Part shown: piece after piece, positions 32,146 to 55,063 of the stretch
How the letters are laid out: each line of letters starts with the position of its first letter
Position numbering within the stretch: the stretch's first letter is position 1
NCBI GenBank assembly: GCA_964023275.1
Contig: OZ029917.1
Coordinates: 20,433,988 to 20,497,987 of the forward strand
Length of the DNA stretch: 64,000 bases
Direction of reading: 5' to 3'
Source: Norana najaformis
Taxonomy: Eukaryota; Annelida; Clitellata; Crassiclitellata; Hormogastridae
Notes under the pieces: model-generated
Databases searched by the model: none
Seen by the model: only the letters and a program-made list of their open reading frames with translations
Told to the model about the DNA's origin: nothing
Program-made: the position numbers and the translations under genes

Positions 32146-35100
32146 TTATGAATAAAAATCAAAACTGCTTGTGCTGGCCTTGGCTTCTTTGCTGTCAATG
32201 TTATTTGTACTCTGGTCACTCGTTCCAAAATCGGCCTCAGCATCAGGTGATGTATGAGGAGCCAGAGCAATTGGCAAGATGCCAGAATTCAAGGCACAGT
32301 CGGAATCCGTGTTGTCATCACAGCCCAATTTTTGAGGCAAGCGCAGTTGCACAGGTTTACCTACAGATGTTTGGCAAATGCATTTAGAACTCAGGTGAGA
32401 AGGCAGACAGTTAAACATAATTCACAACATGCAAATGCATAAATAAATCAGGTTAAATAATAATTAATAAGAGGTAGAGTAAGTGTGATTCACAAAGCAC
32501 ACAGTAAAACAAACTAAGATTATACCAGTAGCAAAGAAAGGTAACAGCCTTTCACTAAGGCACAATACAAATATCAATTCTTTGCACCAGTAACTCTCGC
32601 AAGATATAAGGGCATTAGAAAACTTGCAGCCCAAGCCAAGAAATGAAAATGCCTACATGAAATAAAAGTGGTATGTGTATTACAAAGACGTCATATGGCA
32701 TAACCGTTTAGATACCACAAGAATGGCATAACATTTAAATACCACAACAAAATAGACAGGATTTACAATAACTTGATTTAAATTACTTAGTGACTGAAGT
32801 AAGACTTTAACCCTTAACTGACGAGAGAAATTTTTCCGCCTAGGCCCTGACGACGAGCGATTTTTACCGGAAAACGCCTATTAATTAAATAGTTTTCAAC
32901 TTGTTGTATCTCAGTCAGTTCTTGACCTACAGACATGTGGTTACCATCAATCTTTAGCATTTTATCTCCTCTTCCCATCCATTCGTCTAATTTTTGATAC
33001 AAAAAATTTTGGGGTACCCAAAGTTGCCCCAAACCGTACCCCACCCCATGTTTAAAACTTTTTTCATGTTCAGGCTCCTATGGAAAATAAATTTCAGTGA
33101 CAACATATGTAGTGTCAGCACAAAAATCGTGCAGAAATCAATACCAGACAAAACCTCACAAGAATTTTGAAAATATTTTCATAAATGAAGGAGATACAGT
33201 ATTTTTAGTATGTAAGATGAAGTCGTACAAGTTGAAGGAAATATAAGAAAACACCTGAAAAGTAAGAAATGTCTAACTTATCAGATCTTGGTCATTCTTT
33301 GACACACAGAGTTGAGGTTAATATCATTCTTTAGCATTTTATTTCCTCTTTCAAACCATGTTTCCAGTTTTTGAGAAAAATCTTTGGAGGTACTCATAGT
33401 TGCTCCAAACTGTACCCACCCCATTTGAAAACTTTTTTCATGTTCAAACCTCTATAGAAAACATTTTCAGCGACAACTCATGTAATGTCAGCAAATGAAC
33501 TGTGCAGCAATTAATATCAGACAAAACCTCCAAAAAGTTTGAAAATATTTTCATAAATGAAGGAGATATAATATTTTTAGTATGCAGACAGTAGTCGTAC
33601 CAGAGGAGTAACAAGAAATGCCTAAAACGTAAGAAATTTTTAACTTATCAGATCTTGGTAATTTTTGGCATACAGAGTTGAGGTTAACATCATTCTTTAG
33701 CTTTTTATCTACTCTTTCAATCCTTCAGTCCAGTTTTTGATAGAAAAATTTTGGGGCACTCATGTTGCCTACTCACCCTATCACCTCCCAAACACATACA
33801 TAGTAATACAACCACGACATCAAAAACACTGCAGCATGCACACCAACAGGACAACAGTAACATTACAACAAGCCAGGCACACAGAGAGGCAAACACACTG
33901 AAGTTTGTTTCCTTTTCAAATATTTGGTAGCTCTCAAAAGGGCCATTTTTATGAATGCCTGAGTGCACTGGATGGTCACCTTGAAGACGGATGAAGCTCC
34001 TGAATCGACTCCTCTTTCTCAATAGACTGCACTGAACAGTTCTAAGAGGACAATTTAGAATGGAAATTTTAAAATTTGTATCGATGTGCTATATTGCTTA
34101 CCTTCCTTACACTCCACAGAACCACTATCTGATTTTGCTCGTTGCAAATGTGGAAGCATAAAACTTTGCACAAAGCAACTTTACATGCTTCACATTCATA
34201 TTGAGCCTTCTTGGGGCAGCCTTTGGGATTCTTGATCTTGTTCTCTAAAATAAGATGCTAGAGGAGAAGTAGGGTTCCATTTTATTCTGTGGGGTTTACC
34301 TGCCTTCTGTGTATTTGGCCTACTCTGCTCACCATGCAGGACTGGTCTGTTCAACTAGCACATCAAAAAATTTATCCAAAAGCAGTTGGAAATATTTCAA
34401 AAATGGTGCATCAAGGGCTGGTCCGCCACAGACGCTTGTAAATGGAACAGTTAGGGGTCAAATGGGAAAATCTGCTACTTGTTCAGTCCTGTCTATCTCG
34501 CCCAAGTCATCCGCCTGACCCAGTTTGACAGTCCGCTAGCGTGTATACGTAGCCGTCTAATTCGGTGTCGATGTCAGAATGTTCTTTAGCCAAAACCACT
34601 TTATCTTCTTCACTGGTAGCAAAAGACAGGCTTTTATTGTCAGATGAGTCAAAACTGTCATCGTCTGATGCAAATTCATCAAGAATTTAAATACCACAAC
34701 AAAATAGACAGGATTTACAATAACTTGATTTAAATTACTTAGTGACTGAAGTAAGACTTTAAAGACCAATCACAAAGACTGGTCTGTTTAAAATAATTTA
34801 TTTTGCATACATTGTGTATTTGTTAACATCAGAACTAATTTGACAAGGCAGGTTTGGTGTGTGTATTAAAATTTTTCATCATGAGGCAAAAGCCTTGGTC
34901 TTCAAGTTCTTTCAAGGTAATGGTGCAATTCAAAAATCATAATTTCGAAACTGAATAATTCGTTTCAAATCCTCTAACCTTTTCGCTGATAAAAGAGCAC
35001 ATAGGCATGGCTGTAATCTGCTTCTTGAGGCTCCTGCTTAACTGTTGTTTCGTCGTTGAAGTAATACCATTCCCCTTTAATCGGGTGCCTAGCGTAGGCT

Positions 35101-38100
35101 GTGTAATGGCCAGAATTAGCCCCTGATTTAAACAGGAAACCAAAATTTTATTCTTCTCTTTGCTCAGTGAATAAGCAAAATAAGTTACACTACATCATAA
35201 ATTATTAAGCAGTAATACTAGGTTATTAGCAAATTACACATGGTCACTCAGATTTTGGATAGACAAGTATAAACACCAGATGCAAAATAATTGGCCACAA
35301 CTAACTGCGTTGATGCCAGTCAGTGGCATGATAGCCAAAGGGTTGAGCGATTGACTTGTAACATGAAGAGCATGGGTCCAAGCCTCCTCTGAAGTGGTTA
35401 CTGTGTAGGGACCTTGAGTAAGTCTTCACCCATAACTGCTTAGCATTGTTGACTGAAGCTTAGTCATTAGATACCGATGCTTAATAAATGCAGAAATAAT
35501 AATTACTTTGCAATGCAGAATACGGAGATAAGTGATAACATGTGCACTGGACGCCCAAGATCTTTCACCCCATGGATTTTGCTGATGATGATGCATAGGA
35601 AAATGCACAAGAACAAGGAAAATACAAAAATCAGCAAATGCAATATTGCCAGAAAGATAATACTGACAAACCTCCAAAATGGCAAACACAGCTCTGCAGG
35701 TCATAGGTCAAACTATCAGTCCGTGGACCAGACGTGTAGTTCGAGAGATCCAGATTTCCCACAGGAAAAATCACCTTACTGTCAATCTTTGTGCTTGAAA
35801 GCTCATGATATACAAACCTACAAACAACAACAATGAACTGATATCCAACAACAAAAACAAACTTTTCTAATGAAATTAAGTTGGTGAAAACAGTAATTAA
35901 GAAGGCATATACCAATGACAATTAATTCAAACTTTTAATTAGAAAAAGTTTTCTGCTTATTTAACCCTACTCAGTCGACTGCCTTTGATTTAAATGCTCT
36001 GCTTTAATGCACTTTCAAATAAATGTTATATCATCTTGCAAACTAAAATGCACTTCCAAACTAAGACTTAAATTAAAAATGAAATGTTCCTGAATTAGCT
36101 TATCACAAATCAGAAAAGTTTTTGAACCGAAACTAAATGACATAACTTTTCCAAAATCAAATAAATATCAGAGACATTTGACTAACTTTGTCAATACCAG
36201 TAGTAATTGCTAAACACCCATCCTGACACTCCTACTCACAAACTCATTACAAAATCACTGAAAAGCAACACGAAAAAAGAAAGTCGAATCACATCGTTGG
36301 TGGAAGTGATAAAGCCAGTACAGGCAAACAGAGTAATACACGTCACTTGCGGGTAAAAAGCGGGAGTAACTATGACTCTCTTCCCAAAGAGACTACGTCA
36401 CTTGCGGGTAAAAAGCGGGAGTAACTATGACTCTCTTCCCAAAGAGACTAAGACAAGCCTTACCTTTTCAGATAGACAACAAGTGTGTCTGGATAACGCC
36501 AAACTGTCATGGTTTTCTTAGCACATTGATTCTTATGGCACTTAGGACAGAACCAAGGATTGTGCTCATCCAGCATTTCACTACAAGTTTCATTCATTCT
36601 GTTACCAGAGTTCCACAGATTACAACAAACTTCAAAACTTCTATTAATTAGTAACAAAATCTACATTACTATAAGTCACTCACAACATTAAATCGATAAT
36701 AATATCTTCTGAAAAATTATAGCAGTCTATAAAAACACAAACTGTATTAAAAATGCAAAAAACTAGTTTTAAATATTCTAAACTGTGATAGGCTAACAAA
36801 ACTTACTCAAAAACTGTTAATTCATTTCCATAAAGATGAACCAAGATGAAAGCATATGTCATGATCAACAAAATGGTTAACATAATATGATTTTTTTCTA
36901 AACAAGGTCACTTTCCCTACCCATAAGGCAATAACCACAGAAGACTTGTAGTGAAAGCTGAAAAGGCTGTGATGTCATTCAGGTCTAAACTTAAGATTCA
37001 TCTGTTTCAACTTGCTCACCCACCATACCAAAGCTTCTGGTTTCTCTGACCTATCAGAATTCGACCCAGCTTCTCCAATGGATATGATTTTGGATTGCGA
37101 TTTTGACTTGAAGCAACCATCAACTGATGCCTTGGGCATTATGATAACAGCACTATGGAAGTCTTTAGATGACATTAGATTAGATAAAAATTTTCTCCAG
37201 CACATCATGGAATTAACCTATTGTTGCCACTCCCAACACAATGGTTTCTTGTTCATCTGTTCAATGAATTAGCACAAGCCAGGATGTAAGGGTAGTGTGA
37301 TAGTGCTGAAACAATGCTGTCTTACTTAACCATGTTAATGCAAAATGAAAAAATGTAAAAACACACTGTCCTATATTAACAGTAATAAATGCTGAGGTAA
37401 ACACAGAAAAGATAACTTCTCAATTGTTCAAGCCCTTCTCACTTAAATTATTAATTAGTTACCTCTCAGTAAATGCCTGAAAGCAGTTGTACAGAGTGAG
37501 AGGAGCCGATGAGCGAAGCTTTTCCATAGATATGTGGTCAACAAATCGTTTGGCCATTTCCATTTGTGCTTCGCTGAGATCAGTAAATTTAACAACAAGA
37601 TGGTCGCTTGGCTGAAGACTCAACTGCCCATCACGACTCAGCTCACAGCCGCTGCAGTGCTGAGTGTAGAGACAGCGCGAGCAACGATAACCCTAGCACA
37701 AACACCAGAAACATTGTACTAACACCACAAAAGATCTCTTTTAAATTGTAGCAGCAGGGGAAAACTATTAAATGTGATAAACCTGGGTCAGCCAAAAGAC
37801 CACATCAACTTAACAGACCAGTGTCAAACAACAGTTTCATCAATCAGTGTCATAAATTACTGCTACTGCAACAACTCCACTTCATTCCTTCATCATTACG
37901 CACCTGGATTATTGCAGTTACATTCTCACAGGCCTGCGAAGTTCAGAATTCATCAGGCTTTTTAGTCTGCCATCAACTGAGGCATCTTTGTGCGGTCATT
38001 AAAGGGTGCTACACAAATGTTCAAATACATACAGTATATGACCATCAATAAGTAGATCCTACACAAAAGTCAATTGCTGTTTTGAGGTCAAAACAGTGGA

Positions 38101-41100
38101 AAGCTTCCTCCCCAGGTATATGTCAAAGTTTTAAAATTTACAGAATAATGCTAGAAATATGCTGGTATCTTTAAACTACAATGACAGAATGCGGCAACAG
38201 AAAATATAACCACAGAAACGTAGAAACTATTGCCAGTTTGCATTAGAGACATCAGAAAATATAACCACAGAAATGTAGAAACTATTGCCAGTTTGCATTA
38301 GAGACATCAGAAAATATAACCACAGAAATGTAGAAACTATTGCCAGTTTGCATTAGAGACATCAGAAAATATAACCACAGAAATGTAGAAACTATTGCCA
38401 GTTTGCATTGCCAGTTTGCATTAGAGACATCAGAAAATATAACCACAGAAACGTAGAAACTATTGCCAGTTTGCATTAGAGACATCAGAAAATATAACCA
38501 CAGAAATGTAGAAACTATTGCCAGTTTGCATTAGAGACATCAGAAAATATAACCACAGAAACGTAGAAACTATTGCCAGTTTGCATTAGAGACATCAGAA
38601 AATATAACCACAGAAATGTAGAAACTATTGCCAGTTTGCATCAGAGACATCAGAAAATATAACCACAGAAATGTAGAAACTATTGCCAGTTTGCATCAGA
38701 GAAATCATCAGTTTAAAAACTGCCAGTGGTTTCATTGTTTGCCTTCTTCAAGTAATTATTTCTGCCTTAACATAAACTCAAGCTTTAAGAACTTTAATTC
38801 TACAAATAAGGCTATAATTGGACAGCTAAAAATAAAAGTAAAAGAGATTGTTCATAAAAAAGTCTTAGACAAAATGAATACGTGGTTCCACTTTTTGATT
38901 TTATTCATGAAATCAGTACCTGGAAGACTGTCTCTACAGCAAGATTTATTTACCACAATGGCCATATCGATGTTTGAGCATTTTATAAAATATATGCTAT
39001 GCAGACCAAAATGCAAATTTTGGTTGATGTGACATGGTATGAACCCAATTACACACATACATATACATACATACACACATCTTCCCTAGAATATGTTTCA
39101 GAGCCCCATGCTCTTGTCTCAAGCCACCTGGGTCAACAATCATTAAGCTGCACAGCCAACAGGGACCTGCTACTCTTACGACCAAACAACTAATCAAACA
39201 CACAGGGCATTCTATCACACTGAATGTTTTGTCAGGAACAATTTTCAACTAAAGATCAAAACTGTTCTGCCTGCCTAAAACAGCTCAAGAAACAATTATA
39301 GTTTATCTTAAGATAGCCATGTCTCTGCATCTTTCAAAAATGCTATATTTTAAATGCTATATTAATAAGCAGATACATACAATCACCCCAAATATGCCAA
39401 AGTAAACCCAACCGACCATCTCAAACGTGCCAAAGCTGCAACACAGAGAAGAGCAGTCCCTTAAGCTAGCCCAGAGAAGCAGCAACGGGTGTGAAGTGTT
39501 AGCGACTTCAGTTTTCTTAGCCTCAGCACATGAGGTCCTCTCCCTTGCCACAACAAGATAACCAAGCAGTTAATATGTCAGCCTTTAATACTTTAATTAA
39601 TGACCATAGTTCCAGAGACCTGGATTCATCACCTGAAATTTCATTCAGAAGCCAACAGCATCATAACGAAGGATGACAAAAACAGCGATTAATTTTGACT
39701 AACACACCTGACCATCCGTGAGTATAATGGAATAGTTGACAATGCATGGAACGACCCTGTCCACCATTTCATACAACAGTTCACCAGTCAGTTTGCTAGG
39801 CAGGTAGAGAATGTTGGGATGGCCAAACAGCTTCATGACCTTCTGACCCGATTCATCAACTTGATCATATCGGTACATAACAGGAACGGACAATATTCTA
39901 AAGCGTAAAAAAGTGTCTTGCATTTCTTTTACTAACTCATGCAAATAAATGGAATGCAGTCTTACTTGTACAATAATATATAACTGCTCTCTATGAAAGC
40001 AGACTCAGTAAACTGGAATAGGTAATCCTCCACAGTTAATAAAGCCAAGCGGATAACAAATTTTTTTCAATAAACCATAAAACATAACACAAAATTACCA
40101 AAAACAAGCTGAATGAAATTTACACATGCAATTCTTTGACAAAATACCTTGTTTTTGGATTATAGTCATCCGTGCTGTTCACCTTGACAAAATCTACACT
40201 TGGGTTGACTGTTTCCAAGCAGATCTATATATACAAGAACATGTGCACTCAAACTGTTACAGGTCTGGCACTTGGTCTCACATCAGATGGTATGAAATTG
40301 CATAGTACATTTTTATGTGATATTTCAGTATGATATGATATATGATATAGTCATGGTATGATATGACATATGATACAGCCATGGTACAATGTAATTTGGT
40401 GTTGTATAAGAAGTGGAATAGCATAGCACTTACAGGGCAAGCATAGGACGCACGACTATAATGCTTGAAAGACAGCTGCAACAACAAAAACCAACTGAGG
40501 TTATAGTTTTCAAATCCTTCATATAACAACATCATCAGTAAATAACTACAGCCACATCAGTCATAGTCATTATAACAAATGACTAATTGGCTTATGTTAC
40601 CAGGTGTGTAACCCTAAGGATAAAATTGATCACAAAAACAATGAGCTTGACGAGCAATGTATATAGCTATTCTTTTATTAACTCAAAAACCAAAAATCTC
40701 TTGATTCTGCATTCCATGATTGCTGATTGCTTGTAGAAATTAATATTATACCAAATAATTTATATACTTTCTGTATTAGGGTAGCCATTGTCACAAAGCA
40801 AAAAATTAAAGTTAAAAATTTAACTGTTACCCCAACAATGCCATATGTAGAAACAAATACAAAATATCTTTTAAATTGGAAAATATTCAGCAGTGGCCCC
40901 AAGCTCTAAACTGAGGGGTAATAGCTGTCTTATCAGACTTTCACTTGATTTTCACCACTACTCAAAATAACTGATGTCACTGAAAATTTTCTTCAGTTGC
41001 ATTTTTCTGTGACAGTTAGAATTTCAAAATACATCCAACAGCATCCACCATATGTGAAATACTGGTACAGATTTCCTTGCAAGGGTCTTTTTAGTACAGT

Positions 41101-44100
41101 TTGGAAATACTGCTGATGTTCACCAACAACCTGCAGAAGAAACTGAAGCTGCTTCTTTTCCTTTGGTTAACTTCTTGTTGAAATCCTAAATGAAGACCAT
41201 GTCTCTCTCAGCTCTGTCATAAACAGCTGCTAGTGCCTTAACCACCTGCAAACATCCACTGTATGATTCGGCTTCTAAAGCTGGATGTGCAGAATTGCTC
41301 CAAGCCCCTGTTGCCAAGTTCTGCAGTTGAGTCAACCCTAGGAAGCTTTGGAGGATGATTCAACTTTTATATTTAAGGGTCATTCTAATCAGCATCATAA
41401 AGTATTACAGCATGCATTAACTGTCACGACTACTAAGTACCAGGTCATCTGCAACAAATGAATTACAAGCAAGACTGCAGTACACAGATCCCTGATCAGA
41501 ACACATTAGAAAGACTAATTGAGAATTATTTTCTTGATATACTCACTAAATACAATTCCACGCTCAAAAGGCCTTAGCCATCATCTTTTCAAGTGTCCTC
41601 GAGTTCCAAATCAGGCCAGATATTTACAAAATTTCTCCATTCCACTCTCAAAATGAGATAGTGCACCAATATACCCAACTAATCACATTACTGTTACTGA
41701 TCATAGTGATTTGCAACACCATAGCTTTAACACTGCTTTAGGTACCTTGTAATGCAGCAAGCAGGTCAGCTCTTACCTAAAGCCTGTCCCTTGTAGGGAC
41801 TTGAGGGAAACTTGAGGGAATCCTAAACATCTGATTCTGCTATTCCATAAATCGACTCCATGGCATTAAATAGTCATGATTTATAAATTTAAGAAGTAAA
41901 TACATAAAAAATAACAGTGATGACAATACCTCGAGACAAGGGTGACAGAGAGTTCCACCACAGGAAGCGTGTACCACAAGGTCACTGTCTACCATTTCCT
42001 CCAAACAAATCGCACAGATCTTCCACTGATCAGGTGCCACTTCATTCTCACAACTTGGCACCTGTTCATCCATGTAACCACCTGATGCCCCATCTTCTCC
42101 AAACTTTGTTGGCTGCAGATTGCTGACCTCCATCTGTCTGGACCCGACTACAGCAGAAGGCTGGCCAATCTGGATGTTGTCATCTCCTTCACCCCACACA
42201 ATGCCGCTCCCCATGCTATTGCTCATCTTCCAGACATTCGTTCCAAGCAGATTCTCATCGGCACTATCTGTCATTGTCGCAGGAAGCTGAAGCAGGTTGT
42301 GCTGCCAGTTGACGTCTGGGTTGGACTCAAGTCGCGAGTCGCACATTGGCATTGACGACATCTCGCAGCTATTGTTCAGCAGGTTTTCACTTAATGACTC
42401 AGCAGCGTAAGTCGTCTCCATTTCCATTGTCATCTCATGTGCTGTGCGGACAGCAGTTTCACCCTCAAAGTAGTCAAGCACGTCGTTGACATTGGAGGGC
42501 GAATTGCAGTGGGTGGAAAGCATCTTGTCTTTGGCAGATGAAGATAAAACATTGTTTGGCAGCAGACTGTCACCCTCAACTTCAGGTTTCAAGTCACCAA
42601 AGGGGCTTTGTTCAGTCAGAGCATCATCAAAACGCGGCGGTGGAAGCATTTCAAAGGCATATATTGCTCGATCTGTGTCATTGATAAACTTACTCTGCAT
42701 GCTGTCTTCCTGTTCAAAATGAAAATATTTTATTCAAAACATATTTAATAGGAAACTTCAGCAATAAAATTATAAACACATGGCCATTCTCAATTAAGCA
42801 GGCATTTAAACACATCAGGTGTTTACACACCGCAGCTGTTGAAATGAAAACAGATATTTGAAAAGCCAGTGTTTCATCAAAACTAGTATTTAAAGGAAGC
42901 AGGTAACAAAGCAGCTACTTATATTAAACATTTAAACAGAACAGCTATTTAAAAGAAGCACAGATTTAAAAGAAGCAGGTCTTGAACAAAGAAAGTATTT
43001 CAACCAAACAAGAATTTAAAAGTAGCTAGTATTAAAACATGGCAGGCATTTAAACCAAGCTGATATTTCAATGCAACAGGGTCATTCTGAGTCAACTCAA
43101 CCAGCTTTGGGAAATGTCTCCACCTCACCATATCAGATTTTGATATATGTCAAGAACATGCCTTAGTCCTCCAAGATTCAGACCTAAATACCTAGTAGTT
43201 CCTAAAATACGAGACGTAAAACACACCTGGATTTGCCTGAATTTAAGTGCTAATTATAAACCCATTATAGCATGCTCCAATATAACACAAATTCAGTTAT
43301 AGTGCAATTGCAGTCATGGCAACCAAATTTTTCTATGAGTAACATTAATTGTACCACAATAGATGATAGTGTTCAATTGTTTTTGCTAGTGGCAAATATT
43401 TTGGCAACATATTCAGATGCTTTTGCAATGTGCTAACATATTTCTGCATTTGAGAATGGTTTTTTGCAGGAAGATCATAACAACATAAACACTGAGACAA
43501 TATTTTAGGATATCTGATAATTCTGGTATGCATTGAGATCATTCTATTAAGAATAAACTACGATACAATTTACGCCACAGGTGTGTTAATCAATCAGCGT
43601 TCAGCCATGATTTATGAACAGCAGAATAAACTTTCAAGATGATTGGGGACAACTCGTTTCCTTAGGAGATGTTGGAATCACTAGAAGGCCAGAAAATCAA
43701 TGCAATAAAATTCTTTCAAGTTAGAATTGTTTCATATTTTCTAAACAACATTAACAAAGTGTTAATAAGAAACAAAATTACAAGACATCATTAATAAATG
43801 GCATAACAAATCCGTTGAGAAGTTTTACACCATTCTAAACATATCTGTGCTATATAAATGTTGAGATGAAAATTAGCAAAGCCATAGCACAGCTGGCACT
43901 TTTTCTGTTGTAATCTGAGGGTGCATTTTGATCTCAAACACATTTTAATTGAAGCTAGAGGTAAATCAAAACACTCAAGCACGATTTAGTTTTGATTTTA
44001 AAGCACCATGCATGCCATGCAATCGTGCATTCATAATAACCAATCAAAGCAAGATTTGGCCACATAATTTGGCCGTCATGCAACATTTTCACTGCACAGA

Positions 44101-47100
44101 AAGACAACCACATGATTTCACATCCCCAAAGCCTACAAGCATATGCTAAAACACAACTGTAACTCATTCTGCGCGCAAAATTTGTTAACATGGTATTCAA
44201 TACATTGCAGTAGGTTTACAAAAGGTTGATGATGCAAATGATTTTTATGCTTTTCCAGGCACTGTATTTCAGTTGCTATTCCATATGCAAGTGTGAAACT
44301 TTCCACATAGCTTCAGTTTGTTGTGTAGTTTTGGGAAATGTATTATACTTAGGTCTATCTAACATATTTTAGTTACATGTGTGTCAAACAAGCTACTTTA
44401 TAACATTTAGCAAAACGTGACAGCTAATTCTCCACAATGTAGGGTCATTAATAAGCCATTTGACAACACACTGACTAAAAATTATCCAAATTTGGAATGG
44501 TGAAGCGGAGCCACTAGTAGAGTTGACAAGCAATGATCCAGCAAGTATTCAGCTTAAGCACGACCGTCTTTCTGCTTATCTCTGCATTGCCCAACACAAC
44601 CACTCACCAGAATCCGAGCAATATGGTTGTCAAAGACTTCTGCCAGAATGATGTCACAAGACTCCTCTCCGATCACAACAATCAACTCCTGCCGCAGTCG
44701 CCTGACGTTATCCTGTCTTGTAACAGTTATTAGATAACGGACCGGCTGTTTGTTGTCACATGGAATAAAAGTCACACCTGCACAGACAAAGCACTTATTC
44801 AGGAATCAATAAGGTTTGATTTTTTCCCAAAAAGGATAAATAAAATCACTACAAGTAGCCACTGTACGATCACAGTCATTAAGCCCTTATTAATTGCTCA
44901 TCCAATTCTCTGAAACTCTGTCCCAACTACTGCTCATTCAGCCCGGTCCTTGACTTCACGTTGACCTTGGCTCAATATCCCAGACTAAAGGCTTCTCATG
45001 CAGACTTACTAACCCTTGATTATCTCTCTCTTTCTCAGTGGAATAATGTTCTGGAAATTGCCCTGATATTTGGCTTGATATTGATAGACTATCAATTGAC
45101 GCCTTGTGCATCAGATACAGGCATAAAAAATTCTGAGGCAGTTTACCTACAAATGTGAGCCAAATGAAGCTTATGACAAGTTTAGTTTTTTCTAAACTAT
45201 GCTGAATATTAAAGTCCAATCAGTGACTGCCCTATTACTGAAGCAAATGAAAACCCTTGGCAAAATTTAGGACTTTAAACTGAAACACTCACTTATTTGT
45301 CGTTCTAGAGCGTGAGGTAATGGCACGGACAAATACATGAAAGGCTCAAATGTGACAGAGATATGGTGACACTCTAAACATATCACCTACAACAAAGTAT
45401 AAGGAAAAATTCTGCTCACAGAAAACAACTAACAATACAAGTAATTTAAGTTTAAACTAATTTAACTAACTGCAAATTCCCTACAAATCAGGAACTCAAA
45501 ATTATCCTGTAACAGAAGCTGTTCTACTTTCATTAGGCTCCAAATAAGTCCCTAACTTACAAATATGATGAAATTAAATCATAAATAAAATACATAAATA
45601 AAATCACAACTATACACAACAAGGTGGGAACCTCTAAAAATGGTGCATAAATTTGCGATGCTACTGCCCCGGGTGATGACTGAAAAGATTATGATGATGA
45701 CAATGATGATGACAACAACGATGAAGACAACATGTCTAGTTGATAGTAGTAACTCACAGTGCTTTTGAACTGTCCCTGAAAGGTATCGACGATGACGCTC
45801 TTGTTCTGCTGTGTGTACCTCAGCCAGGCCTTCTCTGCGCTTCGTACATACTTCATCAAGAGATGATCTTCATTATTTAGACACGTCATGGCAGTGGCAC
45901 TGAGGGTCCTCTGGACTGACAGCAGTTGGTCCCCAGATGCTGATGGCCCAGCAAACGCCTGGTCATCGAACGAGTGCATTCCACCAACAACAGAGGTCTT
46001 TGAATCGCAGTCTTTTGTCTGGTTCTGCTCTGTGTTGACTTTGAGCTTTGACTGCATCCTCAGGTTCTTCTCCTCCTCATCCACCTTGATCCTCTTTGTG
46101 TTGTTGATGTTGTACTCATCACCAGACTCCAGGTCCGAGAACAGCAGCTTCTTTCCGTAGTAGCCCTTGTCCGAGAACTTGTCTCGGCAGTTGACGAGCA
46201 GATTTGTCTCCTTGACCGGCTTGCACGTCTCTTTCTCTGTATCACAGGTAAGGAGGTCACTCAGTTGTTCGTAGGCATTTACCTCTTCATCCTGTACCAC
46301 GACTGACGACCTCGAGTTGTTGTCGAGCTTATGAAACTTCTTGCTATCTGTCGAAACGACGTCGTTCATGTACTCTGTTGCAAGAACATTTGTATTCAGC
46401 GTCTTTGTATCTTTCATGCAGAAATCCTCAATACTTGGAAGTTTCCGTTCACCAACAGCACCGTCTCCATCCATTTCCCTCTCCATTCTATACTCTTCCT
46501 TTTCTGGTTCATCCCCAGAGCAACCAACCTCTTTCATGTCTACTGCAACTGCAGCTATGCCGGAACTAACATCACCTGGACCTGTGCTGCCGAAAAATCC
46601 TGTTCCTGTCTTCATCACCTCAGGAATTGGGTCCCATCGCACATTACCGCCGCGGCTCTGATCGGAGACAGCCGAATCAGTGCTTGCATGGCTTGGCTCA
46701 GACAGGTTGCTGTCTTCTGATGCTCCATAAAGCTGGTTCATGCAGTCGAGCGTCATTGTCTCCTTGCGCGACTTTTCCACGATCGAGCAGACAGCAAAGT
46801 TAGAAGGAGGGCATGACAAATGGTATGCTTCACCAGAGCAGCACTCAGACCCTGCCTCTGAGGAATCATTGGATTCAAGTTCAGCCAGACAGTCTTTCAT
46901 TGACATTGTGCCATTTTCTCCTCCACCAGTGCCTCCTCCGACTCCAGTTCCTCCTTCTTCTGCATCGGTTCCAGAGGAGTTGCACTTGATGTGAGAACTC
47001 CCAGCATTAAGATGTTCATGCAGGCTGTCAAGAAGGAGCGCCAAGAACTCTTGGCAGTCATGCTTTGTGCAGAAACAGAGTTCAAGATATTGCCAACACT

Positions 47101-50100
47101 CACTATCATTAAAAATACTACAGTCATCTCAAATTGCTTTTTGCAGGTGCTTGAAAGTCACTATATAAATGTTTGTTACATTATATTACTGATTATCAAC
47201 ACCAGAAAGCAAGTTTCTAGAACAAATTATTTTCATTGCCTTTTACCAAAATGGAACATGTACTAACGGTAAGCAACAACAATCATGATGGAGAGAAACC
47301 TGACCTGAAAAGGCTAGTCTTTGTTGAACCTATTGCTATAAATATTGTAAATATTATCCTCTGCTAACTAAAATTATATTGTAGATCTCATTTTAAAAGC
47401 TATGTGAAAGCTTATGCTAAAACTAATTAGAATGAAAAACAAAGAAAATGCCTATGGACTTAAAATATCGTATTATAACTAAAATCAATGCTATTATTTT
47501 TAACCTCTGGTATAAATTATTCCTGAGGAATTCAAAAAAACTTATGAAGAGCATTGTTCTGGTATGGCTAGTCTTTGCTGATATTTTGCTTGGCAGTAAA
47601 GGTGCTGCAGAATGTGCTGAATGGCCACAGGTAAACATTTGAGAAAAAATATAGTCTTTCTATTATCTCCTAATATCTGTAAAAAGGAATCCTTGGCGGT
47701 AGACGAGAGCGAGGCCACCTTGTTACTACTATTATTAGTAGAATAACAATGTCCTGTCACCCAACAAACATAGAAATAAGTTATCTATAGCAGGGCTATG
47801 CAATCTGATGATGTCTGACCTGTCTATAGTCCTGAAACTGTGGATGGTAAAGTCCCACCATGTCTTTGAAGTCCGAAGGATGTAACAAGGAGAAACTGCC
47901 ACTCCAGAACTTCCGTAGCAGACTGGCAAATTTACCTGGTTTAAAATGCAGAACAGATTTTACACTTTCATTATGATATGATTAGCTAGTTTCTTTGTTT
48001 CATACAGAATTGCAGATGGCCATTTTCAACAGAAATCATCTGCTAAATTTTTTACAATTCACCCATTGAAGTCTTTTGGCAAAAAATCCATGAAATTCTT
48101 TCGGAAATGACACAGCATGTCAGCAGTGAAATGACCACATGTTAACCAAACGATCAGCTAGTTTCTAAACACTGGATTTTGGCTTGGATTATAGTTTTTA
48201 TCAGTAGCAGCCAATGGCCATCAGCTAATGCCTAGCATCCTGTTATAGGAATGTTACAGAAATCAAGGTAAAGTAGTTGAACATTCCTAACACCCCCACC
48301 CAAATCAAAACTGGTTCTCCAAGACTTAGGATCATACACACAGCTTTAAGTATCTTTCTGCCAAACTGCAAAGCCTACATCTGGGATTCTAATCCAAGTT
48401 GTAAGGACAAAAGATAATCATGGCACCAGAAGGATGACACTAGATTTAGAACTTTAGCAAAAACAGTCACCAAATTCAGGACTCATAAAGCACCTCTACT
48501 ACTTTTCCCGATCTGAGGAAGAAATACTTAGCTGACCTTTCCAAAGTCTACAGTGCAGAAGCAGATCAGAACTTACCTGTTAGGGTATGCCTGTTGGATT
48601 CATCAGTCTTGAAGTCTTCCATGAAATATTTGATGATGCATGGATTGCTCAGTAGGCATTGCATCCCAGAGTTCATGAAACAGGTGTTTCCTAGGTTACG
48701 CAGACCAGCAATTCCAGGCTCTGCTAGCGAATCTAAAGCCATAAGTCAAAGCTGGCTTAATAATGTGGACAGAGTCAGCCTGTAATCAATTCTAAAAAAA
48801 TTATGTTCTAATGTAAAGTTGAAACATTTTAAACAGTAAAATCAATACAGCAGAAGATTGGTTGAGATCTGCAATGCTAAGAAAACACAATGCAAAGAAA
48901 CTCTTGCTTGTCCACAGGTAAAGCACAAAATGATATTTAAGCTATAAAAGAGGTATTTACGTTAAAGGCATTATCAAGTTCAAGACCCTTATTAGACAAC
49001 AGCAACGTAAGGTTAAGGCCAATGCCAAATCAAAGATAAGGCCAATTTCAAAGCAACACAGAAAGGTAAGATCAAATAAGACAACACTGAATCTAACTCA
49101 CCCCAAAGGGCAACTAATGATGCTAAAATGTTCATGTGTACATTACATTTGATCACAAGACAAGTCAGTCCAAACAGACTACGATACAAAGGATCTGAAT
49201 GGGGAATTATCCCTATTGCTATTAATGCTATTAAGTCTCTTCAGATCAGCATCAGATAAAACAGACTGGATTAGACAAAAAAAACACCAAGGGCTCACCA
49301 TAGCCCCACCACAGATAATTTATGTCTTACCTTTAACATCTCTGTTATGTGCCTGAAATGCATCCAAGTCTGATGATAAAGTTGGAACTGAAGTCTGACT
49401 GTTGTTGCAGGGAACTGTTAAGAACCAAAAGATAAGAACTAAGCACAATGAAAGCGAGCAATTTTTCAATTCACAGCCAGGCAAAGTCACAAGTAAAGAA
49501 TAGTTTTTGTCAATGTAAACTTGGCAGACTAAGTCACTGGCAACTTTATACACCTGCATAAAAAAATAAAAAGGGTTTGATACTTCTATTATTTCTTGCT
49601 TAACATACAAAATTCAGAAGAAAACACACCACAGAGTTTTTAGAAATTATAACAAACTTTGGAATGTGATGCTCCAAATAATAATTTCAACACGATCATA
49701 AATTCAATTCTTGCAAGTTCATTTAATTAACATCACCTACAAATTCAATCAACTATTATTTGTATCTTAAGATGACATGCCAAAGATGGACCACATGGCC
49801 CAAAAACATTTACACTGGATAGGTCCAGCTTTCCAACACTAAGGTCTAATGACTACCAAAACAGCACTGAAGCAGCTGGGTTACAACTCTAGAACAGGTC
49901 TGGGGAAACTTTATTGATGATAGGCTAAACCTACAAAATGGAGTGGTCCTGTGGGCCAGGTGGGATTGTACAGTTGTCTGAGGGCTCCACCCCAAACCCA
50001 ATGTCAAGTTTACTAGTATTTGAGGCTGAAGAAAGAGAATGACAAAAGAGCAGAATGAAGGGACGAAATCAAATGAAGGAGTTTATCAATTCATCAACAA

Positions 50101-53100
50101 CAGAAAAATACAAGCATACTACAATAACAAAAAGAGTTATAAACATTTCTGCAGATACTGTCAAATGGACAACTAAAATGGGTCAACCAACATGCTAGGT
50201 GCAGGATTGTCCCCTTTAGAAGTATTTCAGATGGCCAAATGATTTATGCCCATTTAAACTGTATTTTAATGAATATAATTCAAACAAAATAAAGAGAAAA
50301 AACTTAACTAACAAGTTTTAAAGTTCACAGAACAGTCAAGTCTTTCACAATTACTTAGTGCAACAATCTTACAAGTTTAATAAATGGGTCATTCCATCTC
50401 AATTAAACAAATGGCTCCAGCTCGATCATCTCGGATTTCAATGAAAATTTCACAGAATGTTTGTTATGGTATTAAAGGAAGTTGTGCAAAATTTTAGATC
50501 AATATAATAAGTAGTTTTGAAGATACTGAGTCTCAAAGACATATGGGGTGATCTCGTTTTTGCCGTTTCGGAACTCGCGTCTAAATTTGTAACGATGTTC
50601 AGAAGCTCATAACTTCATTAATATCACAGATAATTTGATGAAATTTTCAGGATATCTAGTCTTTGTTGTTTAGATGAATTTCTTAACAAGAGAATGATGA
50701 GTGTTGAAAACTGTGATATTATGACCCATCTGAAAATAGTTTAAAAAAACTTGTGCTTGTCTGCCAATCGCACTTTGCAGCCCCGACATGGCCAAACTGA
50801 TGTAGTATCAGAGAATGTTTTCACAACTCATAATGCTACTATACTTTCTCTACAAAAATATCCAGAAAGATTCTTTTTCTGATGCATGCCTGCTACCATA
50901 TGGCCTTCCAAAAATGGAAAATTGTATTCTGAAGACCATTTTCAAAGCCAAAGATCATCATGTGGGACAGGTCATGGAGCAATGCAACTTGCATCATTGG
51001 AAAGAGCAGCTCAGAGACTGTAAGTGCACCAAAAATGGTGATGGGGTATCTTCTTGTTCAGGCTGTACTTTTATTTCATTTGTGGCAGTGTTTCCTGCAT
51101 ACGTGAGTTTATAATGGAGTCAATTTCATAGCATTACATTGTGAAATAATCTCTATACTGGGTCAGTTTACTCAGATTTCATCTAAACAACAAAGACTAA
51201 ATATTCTGAAAATTTCATAAAATTATCTTTAATAATAATGAAGTTATGAGCTTCTGAATATCGTTACAAATTTAGATGCGAGTTCCAAAAACGAGGTCAC
51301 CTCATACGTCTTTGAGACTCAGTATCTTCAAAACTACTTACCATATTGATCTAAAATTTTGCACAACTTCCTCTAATACCACAACAAACATTCTGTTAAA
51401 TTTTCATTGAAATCCGAGATGGCTGAGCTGGAACTTTCTGAAAAATTTGTTGAATTGAGATGGAATGACCCAAATAACTCTCCTTTGAAATGCGATAAAG
51501 ATGATGCATTTGCTATGGTGGAACAAATTCAAACAATACACTTTGCATCGTCAATAGGTCTACCTTCCCTGGCATCAAGAGGTGCGCCTTTGCGATTCTT
51601 TCATAACTTCTCCATTCGATTGGGTTTTCACCCACATAGCAATAAGCTAGCTAGTTACACAGCTCATTTGCAAACCAGCTTCATGCACCGTTGTGGCTTC
51701 CTAGTAGACCACTTGCGATTTTCAAGCATCCCTTAAAAAGTTTCACTTGTACAGTATAAGCTCGCTCCTTCCCCACCACTACTGCAAATTTGTGAATATT
51801 TTTATGTTTTGAATTGTAATGTACGTCTGGATATTATAGTTTTACAGCACTGACAGACTCCTTGCACACAGCTTTCAACTCATCATCACAAAAAATGTTT
51901 CCATCCACTCTTAAATATTTGCAGTGCATGCCACCATCTTCTAGTTTCCAATTTGAAGAATTAACTTGCATATATCCTATGAACTCCCCAACACTGCACC
52001 TCTTGCAATCTCTGCACAATACTCCTCCACACATCCTGTACTGATTCCTCCTCTTCCCTTTACATCCAATTCTAAACACTATCCACCCTATCGATGGCCA
52101 TCTGACTGTCTACATGCCTGATCCTTGGATCTTGACCTAGAACCAAACTTGATCTCACCTGCCTAGCGATTTTGTTTTTAGTAAGTGCCTGTGAATGAGC
52201 TGTTCCCACAACTTAGCTTTCTTTTTGCACAAGAAAGCACACTGTGCCCGTGGTTCTGTCACTGCAAGACTTAGTGATCATCTACTAATAGTACAACAAT
52301 GTTTAAAAAATAAACACAAAGAACAGAAATCAGCATCACACCTGAAAATCGAACCAAGAATGAATTTGTCAATTGTTGAATCCAGACATTTTAAAGTCAA
52401 GTTGATCTACGGGCAAACTGAAATGATGCCGTGGGCCAAATTGGGCCCTCACATCGTTTCAAGTACCACACTTTAAAGAAGCAGCGTTATAATGAGGTTG
52501 TGTTCTAAATCTGAACTAAATCAGGCTTTACGGCACTCACTGCATTAGACCAGAATCTGCATTTTAATGTCTCTTATAAAGAGACTGCAGTTCATTTTCT
52601 GTTCCTGTAAACTGATACAAGAGCTTGAGAAAAACAGACTTCAAATATCAGAAGCACACAAATTACTCACAACTTGGGACAGGAACTTCTGCTTCTAAAC
52701 TGGTCATGTCAATGTCACAGAGATACCCGTTGTTTCCTACGAATTCATCGGAAATAGCCGAACAATCAATATTACCTGAGTAACAACAAATAACAATATA
52801 CTACAGTGCAGTCCCGTTTATGCAAGGTGGTCGGTAGCCAAAGTCACCACGACTCACAAACTGCATCTTAAGAGTGCCATGCTGAAATACAGTAGTGCAC
52901 GATTTATGTAAGTCTTAGTGTGGCTAGAAAGCTGATGTGCTGGCACTCACATTGTAGCCCGCTACCATACAATTTTGTCCAATTACTTTGAAAGGCCACA
53001 CTGCTGTCTTGTTATGGGCAACAGTGATGTGATAAAATAATAGCCAATTTATGTCTTTTGGCAACATTAACATCAACTGTTTCCAGACATTATTGTAAAG

Positions 53101-55063
53101 GTGAAGTCCTGCATTGGACTGCCAAGCCTGTTGGTACACAGCTGTTTTAATCTTAACTGTTCCCAGTAGCTAAGCTCCTGCCGATGTTTGCTAGGCTGCC
53201 TACGGCAGGCACAGGCAGAATTTACCTCAGTTACAATTGTTACTAACTCACCCCAAACTCACAGATTAAGTAACTCCTTTATCTATTTGGGGGAAGTGGA
53301 CATATACACAGCTACATTAAGTTCACCTACTTTTGAACTTGTTGCAGGACTAAAGCTAGGTGCAGCCAGCAACTTTTGTGGCCTAATCAGGCAGCTGATA
53401 CAGGCTGTTTAACATAATGACAATATTAGCCTGTTCAGCGTGTTTATTGATTTATCAAAATTCTGCAATGTAGCACCACATTACAAGTTCCTGTACCATG
53501 TGCTAATGCATCTTCCGCATTAAATAGGTATTGTCTGAAGCCTGGCAAAAGCACGTATTAAGCAGATTCGAGTGTCAAATCAACCACAGATGCTTGACTA
53601 AAAAGAAGGATCTTGACTGTAACACTATCCCCAACTGGAGAGCCAGCGCAATATCTCTTGCCTGTAGCTTGAGACACACAAAAATTCTGGCATATCAGTC
53701 ATGACCCAAGCGGCACAGTTAAGGACGGACCAGTGCTGGCGAATTTGAAACTTTGGCAGACCTGCAAGAACAGCATTATAATAGTCCAGGCGTGTTATAG
53801 TGAAAGAATGGACAAGGATCACAGCAGCATCATGCAACAAATTCTGTCAAAAGACCCTGATCTGGTGCAGTAGGTGAAAGCAGGACCTGCAGAGAGAGTT
53901 GACATGGGCCACCATAGATAGATCTTCAATCAGAAGAACGGCGAGATCCCGGACGACATGTTGTGGCTTACAGTCAGGGAATGTCACTGCTATTGTCTGC
54001 ATTTCCACCTCTGCTCTTGCCTATCAACCAGATGAATTGTGTCCTCAGCGGATTCAACCTCAGCTGATTAGAGGACAACCAGGTCACAACTGCCTGGATT
54101 TTAGACATACAAGCAAGTGCATCTGAAGTATGACATGACGTGAACAACTGAATGTCAGCAGCGTATTGGTGACCCCGAGCTCCGAGGGCCATGATGATCT
54201 GGTCAGGTCGGCTGTATACAGAATGCATAGAAAAGGCCTAAGAACCAAGCTCTGTAGGACACCAATGGAACAACCAAATGCCACCATCATAGTTCATCCA
54301 TCCAGGAACAAATGAAGCCATTCTAGGGGTTGACTGACAATTCCATATGGAGTTCTGAGTTGGGTCAGCAAGACGTTATGGGTCACCATGTGGAATATTC
54401 ATCATAAACCCCAAAAATAAGTAAGTAAAAAGGGATGAACACAAATAATTGCTCTTAGCTTAGAGGCTGCTTCCAGATTCAGTCAGAGTAGCTAGCTTTT
54501 CCCAAATCACCAATCACCACTTTCTTTGACACTGAGCATTCTTATCAAGCTGGGTTTACAGATAATCCTTTCCAAGCCTTATCATATTAAACATAATTAT
54601 TAAAATCATCATGCCCACATATGCACAGTGCTACAATCTGATGAAAAAACATCGGCAGATCCTGCTACGCAACTGCACATGAAGAACTTGCACGGCGACC
54701 GATTTATTGGGGGCTGAAGCACAGTACACTGCATTAGGCAGCCTATCATGTGACACAACTTCATCCAGCATTCATATGGGAATCAAAGCATTAAACTTCA
54801 ATGACTTGTGGGGAAAATAGTAATGTGATGTATTGTACATATAGTTTAACAGAGTGGGCATATACACAATGCATTTAAAAGCATTTTATACAATTTTATA
54901 TTCTAAGCCTGGAATAACTGAGAACAATGGAAAAAGAAAAAAAATTATGCAAGGAAATAAAGTGAGGACATAGGAATAAAGTGATACCTGCAGAACTGAC
55001 TGGATCGAGGTTATGATCTACAAACAACTCTGTCTGGTCATATTCCTTTTTTACCTCTGCCAT
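32146..55063 (-). CDS. Ubiquitin-specific protease (peptidase C19) with internal RING-like zinc motif
   Basis: Exons on the minus strand in coding order: 55063-54988, 52775-52671, 49414-49331, 48732-48577, 47935-47820, 47062-45758, 45386-45293, 44777-44608, 42709-41930, 40475-40434, 40224-40148, 39897-39708, 37692-37463, 36598-36464, 35817-35672, 35122-34979 and 32360-32146. All phases agree, giving about 1,354 residues. If exon 16 instead reads through to TAG at 34974, the length is about 1,284. The Cys box is 'GLRNLGNTCFMNSGMQC' and the QQD-like box is 'YRQHDCQEFLALLLD'. The zinc ribbon uses 'CLEC' and 'CPKC', and the His box is 'NSGHYTAYARH' with 'YYFND'. The catalytic triad therefore looks intact. 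The core resembles the USP4/11/15 group (SVTFEPF, PLP) but lacks a DUSP domain in the exons seen. A 435-residue exon rich in acidic residues, a possible ubiquitin-like part (exon 8) and the RING-like motif are inserted in the core. The start Met is the best visible candidate; an acceptor-like TATAG lies just upstream, so more N-terminal sequence is possible. Confidence 0.92.
32811..34684 (-). mobile_element. Decayed piggyBac-like transposon (internally deleted)
   Basis: The left end is TTAA followed by CCCTTAACTGACGAG, a typical piggyBac-family terminus. On the minus strand, an acidic stretch ('DDDSFDSSDN' and onward, about 34665-34510) looks like the transposase N-terminus. 'GGPALDAPFLKYFQLLLDKF' (about 34440-34370) matches the early transposase region. 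A Cys-rich end ('YECEACKVALC', 'CFHIC', about 34215-34120) matches the C-terminal zinc ribbon. The DDE core is missing and frames are broken. The right terminal repeat is absent; the element instead runs into the duplicated 78-bp flank. It sits in the proposed last USP intron. Confidence 0.75.
32880..33775. repeat. About 370-bp tandem units inside the piggyBac relic
   Basis: Landmarks recur three times at about 366-374 base spacing. ACTTTTTTCATGTTC occurs at 33057 and 33431. A TTTAGCATTTTAT/TTTAGCTTTTTAT motif occurs near 32955, 33330 and 33700. A GGGGTACCCA or GGAGGTACTCAT type motif occurs near 33011, 33385 and 33755. Units are diverged and the first and last are partial. They probably represent an amplified subterminal region. 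Confidence 0.75.
34797..34802 (-). promoter_or_regulatory. AATAAA polyadenylation signal candidate
   Basis: AATAAA on the minus strand lies about 175 bases downstream of the in-frame TAG at 34974-34976. It would support a short USP transcript that ends with exon 16 read-through, as an alternative to splicing to the exon at 32360. Confidence 0.45.
35318..35405 (+). repeat. Possible tRNA-derived SINE
   Basis: The sequence has an A-box-like part (GATAGCCAAAGGGTTGAGCG) and a B-box-like part (CATGGGTCCAAGCC) at tRNA-like spacing. A full cloverleaf is not convincing, so it is more likely a SINE head than a tRNA gene. It lies in the last-but-one USP intron. Confidence 0.45.
36341..36450. repeat. 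Perfect 55-bp tandem duplication
   Basis: Bases 36341-36395 and 36396-36450 are identical (each starts CGTCACTTGCGGGTAAAAAG). The second copy ends 10 bases from the USP donor site at 36460-36463, so the duplication lies at the very start of that intron. Confidence 0.95.
36960..37020 (+). mobile_element. Small LINE C-terminus remnant
   Basis: The plus frame reads 'SFRSKLKIHLFQLAH', the usual end of L2/CR1-type polyproteins. Only this short piece is convincing. It lies in the USP intron between exons 13 and 14, antisense to the gene. Confidence 0.45.
38192..38702. repeat. 55-bp satellite-like array, about nine copies
   Basis: Unit 5' part: GAGACATCAGAAAATATAAC; 3' part: ACTATTGCCAGTTTGCATTA. 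Copies are nearly identical. One carries a 14-base insertion that repeats GCCAGTTTGCATT (about 38397-38420). The main variable position is CG versus TG in AAACGTAG/AAATGTAG. It lies in the USP intron between exons 12 and 13. Open frames across it are artefacts. Confidence 0.95.
40190..42020 (-). other. RING-like zinc-binding motif encoded across three USP exons
   Basis: The end of the 780-base exon gives 'WKICAICLEEM', then 'VVHASC', then 'TLCHPCLE'. The 42-base microexon 40475-40434 gives 'LSFKHYSRASYACP'. The next exon opens with 'ICLE'. Read together the spacing is C-x2-C-x11-H-x2-C-x4-C-x2-C-x16-C-x2-C. That makes eight possible zinc ligands, resembling a RING or related cross-brace finger. 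It is separate from the USP zinc ribbon, whose CxxC pairs are in other exons. Whether it binds E2 enzymes cannot be told from sequence. Confidence 0.7.
41090..41360 (-). other. Coding-like relic in a USP intron
   Basis: The minus strand has a partly open frame reading 'LQVVKALAAVYDRAERDMVF' and then a stop, preceded in the same sense by 'LTQLQNLATGAWSNSAHPAL'. It looks like decayed coding sequence, possibly from a mobile element, but I do not recognise the family. No splice sites make it a USP exon in phase. Confidence 0.25.
42800..43080. repeat. Degenerate short tandem repeat, about 20-bp period
   Basis: Variants of a motif like AGCAGGTATTTAAAC recur many times with irregular spacing (for example GCAGGCATTTAAAC, ACAGCTATTTAAAAG). 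It is diverged and lies in the USP intron between exons 8 and 9. Confidence 0.5.
50386..51471. mobile_element. Foldback element with about 300-bp inverted repeats
   Basis: The left end is GGGTCATTCCATCTCAATTA and the right end is its near-perfect complement (GAGATGGAATGACCC). The arms run about 50386-50680 and 51170-51471 and stay highly similar throughout (for example TAGTCTTTGTTGTTTAGATG in both). AAAT on each side may be a 4-bp target duplication. Length is 1,086 bp. A 99-residue plus-strand frame from 50815 lies in the spacer but matches no family I know. It is in the USP intron between exons 2 and 3. Confidence 0.85.
51995..52225 (+). mobile_element. LINE 3' end fragment
   Basis: A diverged copy of the common family 3' end: 'CTGATTCCTCCTCTTCCC', 'CCTTGGATCTTGACCTAGAA', 'GTGCCTGTGAATGAGCTG', 'CAACTTAGCTTTC'. 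The terminal GATTAC tail is missing. It lies in the USP intron between exons 2 and 3. Confidence 0.65.
53590..54420 (-). mobile_element. LINE reverse transcriptase fragment (inactive)
   Basis: Minus-strand frames give a reverse transcriptase palm: 'FLCILYTADL', then 'GHQYAADIQLFTSC', 'WLSSNQLRLNP' and 'TQFIWL', and further on 'FTITRLDYYNAVLAGLP'. The catalytic YADD motif reads YAAD, and frames are interrupted, so it is dead. The affinity is with the Jockey/CR1-type group. It lies in the first USP intron. Confidence 0.8.

Follow-up and report, generated by a model that had tools for sequence, protein, structure and literature searches.

The analyzed window, a stretch of 64,000 nt from Norana najaformis (contig OZ029917.1 of assembly GCA_964023275.1; all positions given here are those within the window), carries on its minus strand, from 55063 to 34979, a gene for a predicted ubiquitin-specific protease (USP) in whose catalytic core a RING-like zinc finger appears to be embedded. 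A preliminary description of the sequence had placed such a finger there and had raised the binding of E2 (ubiquitin-conjugating) enzymes by the same protein; the finger in the predicted USP core is supported by the exons and by Pfam and PDB sequence matches, and binding of an E2 is no more than possible. The arrangement would best be explained by an active deubiquitinase of the USP15/USP4 type that carries a non-canonical RING-fold finger in its zinc-ribbon insert, where the finger would serve as a docking module for E2 or E3 (ubiquitin ligase) enzymes, an explanation to which a probability of about one half is given.

The protein encoded by the gene model matched the Pfam family UCH with an E-value of 2.8e-61. 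Its best match in PDB was USP15 (6crn, E 6.5e-79), to which the Cys box, zinc ribbon, and His box regions could be aligned, and the six next-ranked chains were from USP15, USP4, and USP11 (among the best 60 of 91 distinct sequences). The Cys box (NLGNTCFMNS, with C106 at the catalytic position) lies in exon 4 (48577..48732), and exons 5 (47820..47935) and 15 (35672..35817) encode further parts of the core, all three aligned with 6crn. Exon 6 (45758..47062; 435 open codons) contains the HDCQEF motif, a long insert, and AEKAWLRYTQQNKSVIVDTFQGQFKST, and both of its ends align to USP15. Both zinc-ribbon CxxC pairs are also present and aligned with USP15, the first (CLEC from residue 617) encoded by exon 7 (45293..45386), the second (CPKC from residue 1153) by exon 14 (36464..36580). 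Exon 16 (34979..35122) provides the His box SGHYTAYAR with H1235, followed by FNDET, and the third catalytic position falls on N1252 or D1253 (FND). Asparagine as the third residue of the triad is known from USP2. As Cys box, both ribbon halves, and His box are in place, the enzyme looks catalytically intact and is apparently an active deubiquitinase of the USP15/USP4 type.

Between C106 and H1235, and apart from either half of the zinc ribbon, three exons join in frame to encode the finger: exon 9 (41930..42709), exon 10 (40434..40475), and exon 11 (40148..40224). All three are bordered by AG and GT, and their join reads on in frame into the USP exon that begins at 39897. Exon 9 comprises the end of a ubiquitin-like region (YAFEML), a linker of ∼209 residues, and the putative zinc ligands C934, C937, H949, C952, C957, and C960; exon 10, only 42 nt long and in phase 0-0, encodes LSFKHYSRASYACP with C975; and exon 11 (77 nt) adds C978 and leads back to the USP core. 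The joined ligands read C934-x2-C937-x11-H949-x2-C952-x4-C957-x2-C960-x14-C975-x2-C978, with the signature CAIC at the first pair and CPIC at the last, the latter being interrupted by an intron between C975 and C978. With respect to the coordinates, the eight-ligand pattern, the in-frame join, and the position between the two boxes, distinct from the enzyme's own ribbon, the preliminary description was accurate; of the spacings it gave, only the last (x16) needs correction, to x14.

When the joined segment (96 aa) was compared with Pfam, zf-RING_2 scored 30.7 bits (E 3.9e-07; curated cut-off 27.3), zf-RING_UBOX 28.7 bits (cut-off 25.2), and zf-C3HC4 26.3 bits (cut-off 21). The same three models passed with an 80-aa piece of the join. 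Altogether 18 families were listed, mostly RING or RING-like, and the 15 other than these three remained below their own cut-offs; the listing extended to E 1, although the HMMER filters discard most matches above E 0.1. Of the RING, FYVE, and B-box profiles that the preliminary description had proposed for comparison, RING was matched in this Pfam listing, neither FYVE nor B-box being listed at E up to 1. Shuffled versions of the segment in which Cys and His were preserved did not reach any cut-off (0/9), and only one of the nine brought up any RING model (15.4 bits). A scan of the segment against NCBIfam yielded nothing near cut-off. In PDB, 53 sequences were matched up to E 10, the majority of them RING proteins. 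The top match was a tandem chain of RNF4 with a summed E-value of 5.9e-05, the two copies of which individually reached 0.21 and 0.26, and the best single-copy match was RNF13 (E 0.0014); the matches further included plant cellulose synthase fingers (0.32 and 0.36) and, at E ≥ 0.48, some unrelated chains. PDB thus lends the finger modest support.

In the insert that houses the finger, the ubiquitin-like region comes first, the linker and then the RING come after it, and another cysteine cluster lies further on. The ubiquitin-like region is encoded by exon 8 (44608..44777), its end by exon 9, and was assigned by position and by similarity to provisional sequences of USP15, USP32, and USP19; together with the preceding core it shared 33–37% identity with these in BLASTP, against a database of three sequences for which E-values mean little. 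Taken alone, the ubiquitin-like segment matched nothing in Pfam or PDB. The zinc ribbon of USP4, USP11, and USP15 has a ubiquitin-like domain (UBL) inserted between its CxxC pairs, with ∼170–240 residues following it (PMC5372499). The earlier placement of the finger in an insert of the USP4/11/15 type fits the alignment with USP15, the similarity to the provisional sequences, and PMC5372499. Downstream of the RING, exon 12 (39708..39897) contains ILSVPVMYRYDQ, is in frame, and is weakly similar to the provisional USP15 sequence (E 0.24). Exon 13 (37463..37692) contains the second cluster, C1069-x2-C1072-x5-C1078-x2-C1081 (37683-37645), which has an aligned counterpart in the provisional USP32 sequence and is possibly another zinc site. 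For the insert after the RING, the best PDB match (E 0.92) was not meaningful and nothing in Pfam was above cut-off.

Several observations weigh against a RING-fold docking module. With the full protein of 1277 aa, zf-RING_2 (23.5), zf-RING_UBOX (21), and zf-C3HC4 (15.7) all scored below cut-off. The donors of exon 9 (GTATTG) and exon 11 (GTATTT) deviate from consensus. No relative was found when a joined piece of 349 aa was compared with viral_contigs and genome_contigs, in which 4 and 19 pattern stretches, respectively, turned up and in which animal DNA is not expected. Finally, alignment of the finger with five RINGs from PDB (RNF4, RNF13, Pirh2, TRIM2, and MDM2) placed Gly954 where all five have the canonical zinc-binding His, and Leu979 directly after the last Cys, where an Arg or Lys linchpin is present in four of the five. 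The finger thus conforms neither to the canonical C3HC4 nor to the C3H2C3 ligand set. H949, which falls in the same alignment column as MDM2's first RING His, may substitute for the canonical His. The RING of MDMX, related to that of MDM2, is described as being of the C2H2C4 type, both His acting as ligands (PMC12751038). As H949 matches the MDM2 column and as MDMX sets the C2H2C4 precedent, a second zinc site composed of H949, C952, C975, and C978 is plausible; the first would be formed by C934, C937, C957, and C960. The linchpin is not absolute, as Pirh2, itself an E3, has Met at this position. Ile936 and Pro976, at positions that contact the E2 in many RINGs, are both present in the finger. 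Because these two are kept while canonical His and linchpin are altered, a docking module suits the sequence better than a strong ligase, and ligase activity of the finger itself appears less likely. Most likely, then, an E2 would dock on the tethered RING, or a RING-type E3 would do so through RING–RING pairing, and the deubiquitinase would thereby be kept close to the enzymes whose products it removes.

Alternatively, the finger could make no contact with an E2 or E3 and instead be a structural element, derived from a RING and packed against the ubiquitin-like region or the finger subdomain, that regulates the access of ubiquitin. This would be in line with the change of two positions important for E3 function, and with the embedded UBL of USP4, which competes with ubiquitin for the core (PMC5372499, PMC9939025). 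Tight packing is disfavored by the long linker that precedes the finger, and this explanation is considered rather unlikely.

A somewhat smaller chance is given to the finger being an active E3, in which case the protein would both add and remove ubiquitin and edit chains in the manner of A20. The complete set of CxxC pairs with the CAIC and CPIC signatures and the matches to the RINGs of the E3 enzymes RNF4 and RNF13 argue for it; the altered canonical His argues against it, as does the altered linchpin, albeit with the qualification posed by Pirh2. That a single USP chain would unite RING ligase and deubiquitinase, the ligase being nested in the finger subdomain, and would thereby constitute a ubiquitin-chain editor outside the A20 family, is regarded as improbable, slightly more so than ligase activity as such. 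A20 (TNFAIP3) combines a deubiquitinase and E3-linked zinc fingers in one chain; its OTU protease and A20-type fingers stand side by side, whereas the finger described here is nested within the USP.

Were the exons at 40475 and 40224 not joined as modeled, or were the gene a pseudogene, the finger would be an artefact. The non-consensus donors of exons 9 and 11 speak for this, as does exon 10, the loss of which would keep the frame, whereas loss of exon 11 would shift it. The flanking GT and AG lend no independent support to the join because they were used to place the exons. Against an artefact stand the 16 exons that remain in frame across 1277 codons, and the response of the profile score to the join: with matched left flank, zf-RING_2 fell below its cut-off irrespective of whether exon 10 was left out (22.2) or intron 9 was retained (23.0), and shorter pieces behaved alike (31.2 when fully joined, 22.7 when exon 10 was omitted, and 23.3 when the intron was kept). 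Exon 10 thus contributes ∼8.5 bits to zf-RING_2 (30.7 versus 22.2 and 31.2 versus 22.7 in matched pieces). For zf-C3HC4, omission of exon 10 left 21.6 bits in the short piece, just above cut-off, and 20.2 bits in the longer one. As the scores without exon 10 remain substantial, exon 9 alone holds much of the RING signal.

As a control for the join, in-frame chains linking exon 9 to exon 12 through one or two candidate exons were enumerated under four filters, the strictest of which demanded a pyrimidine-rich acceptor and the donor GT[AG][ATG][GT]. Under this filter, a CxxC was completed in 3 of 143 chains and a CPxC in 2 of 143, both of the latter via exon 11 (40224), which also argues against an artefact. 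In three other introns of the gene (stretches of equal or slightly shorter length, up to 2032 nt), CPxC was completed in 0/144, 0/40, and 0/40 chains, and plain CxxC in 9/40 chains of the third. The looser filters gave some CxxC in 72/910, 184/2477, and 666/10830 chains, so the choice of the strict filter matters. The finger pattern is more than chance, and an artefact is deemed very unlikely. Least probable of all is homology to the MYND of USP19, which would make the finger a divergent treble clef of the MYND or another kind: its place after the ubiquitin-like region is similar to that of the MYND in the provisional USP19 sequence, but no MYND, B-box, or FYVE was among the 18 Pfam families at E up to 1 (with the filters dropping most above 0.1), and PHD reached 10.1 bits versus a cut-off of 24.

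The exons of the gene were placed by hand from the sequence with AG and GT as signals, and its splicing is predicted. The model has 16 exons and 1277 open codons, and all of its 15 introns are GT-AG by choice of exon placement; a pseudogene or a break of the frame was rejected on account of the open codons. Exon 1 (54988..55063) runs from a possible start Met, is open in frame, and ends at a donor GT; its frame stays open upstream of this candidate Met. Exons 2 (52671..52775) and 3 (49331..49414), both in frame and flanked by AG and GT, encode an N-terminal region with no domain match. If the last exon is read on, one further codon is followed by a stop, and more exons may lie downstream of exon 16. 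Upstream, no DUSP-UBL was found: tblastn with the DUSP-UBL of the provisional USP15 sequence gave nothing below E 4 in the window, the 5′ end of the gene being tentative, whereas the core of that sequence, used as a control, gave eight matches at E up to 1e-3.

Two introns of the gene contain tandem repeats with a unit of 55 bp: in intron 12, ∼9 copies are found (38198-38707), and another 55-bp unit occurs in two perfect copies in intron 14, directly after exon 14 (36340-36450). Elsewhere in the window, an open frame on the plus strand (25417-26058) scores 28.7 bits for the ubiquitin-binding CUE domain (cut-off 21.1) and represents another ubiquitin-related gene. Plus-strand frames at 8722-9438 match C-type lectins (26.0 bits and a weaker 16.4; cut-off 22.6), and a WSC-like domain at 5514-5867 on the plus strand is slightly under its cut-off (25.8 versus 27.8). 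The introns, taken with the C-type lectin and CUE matches, point to animal DNA. Related pairs of open frames at 1228-1954 on the minus strand and 3721-4422 on the plus strand resemble, by eye, remnants of reverse transcriptases like those of long interspersed nuclear elements.

With USP15, USP4, and USP11 the protein shares the order of the USP core and, as position and similarity to the provisional sequences suggest, probably a ubiquitin-like region between the ribbon CxxC pairs; it differs from them in the RING-like finger and the extra cysteine cluster, and no DUSP-UBL was detected upstream in the window with the provisional query. Modules inserted into USP domains are known, such as a MYND in USP19 and a B-box in CYLD. 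The USP domain of USP19 has its MYND finger behind a ubiquitin-like region; the finger here is, by Pfam, a RING and not a MYND, and the search for CS domains consisted of the Pfam scan of the model. Of the USP32/USP6 pair, the provisional USP32 sequence shares an extra double-CxxC cluster before the second ribbon half; its insert contains no RING. The RINGs of RNF4, RNF13, Pirh2, and TRIM2 have in common with the finger the CxxC pairs, the CPxC signature, and the sequence match, but possess the canonical His in place of Gly954. The C2H2C4 RINGs of MDM2 and MDMX have a His in the H949 column, whereas MDM2 has Thr in the column of C952 and His in that of Gly954. PMC9939025 names a MYND in a figure legend on the domains of five USPs, USP19 being one of them, but does not specify its owner. 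In a search confined to open-access literature on USP inserts and on USP combined with RING, no USP with a RING insert was found, and automatic database annotations of one may well exist. None was found in PMC5642568, PMC4327156, PMC9939025, PMC5372499, PMC6465955, and PMC12751038, although the supplementary tables of PMC4327156, a survey of domain architectures, may list one.

If a RING truly occupies this slot, a deubiquitinase would be physically coupled to the E2/E3 machinery. The protein would then permit a direct test of whether, in some animals, the opposing reactions of ubiquitin attachment and removal are combined in one chain.

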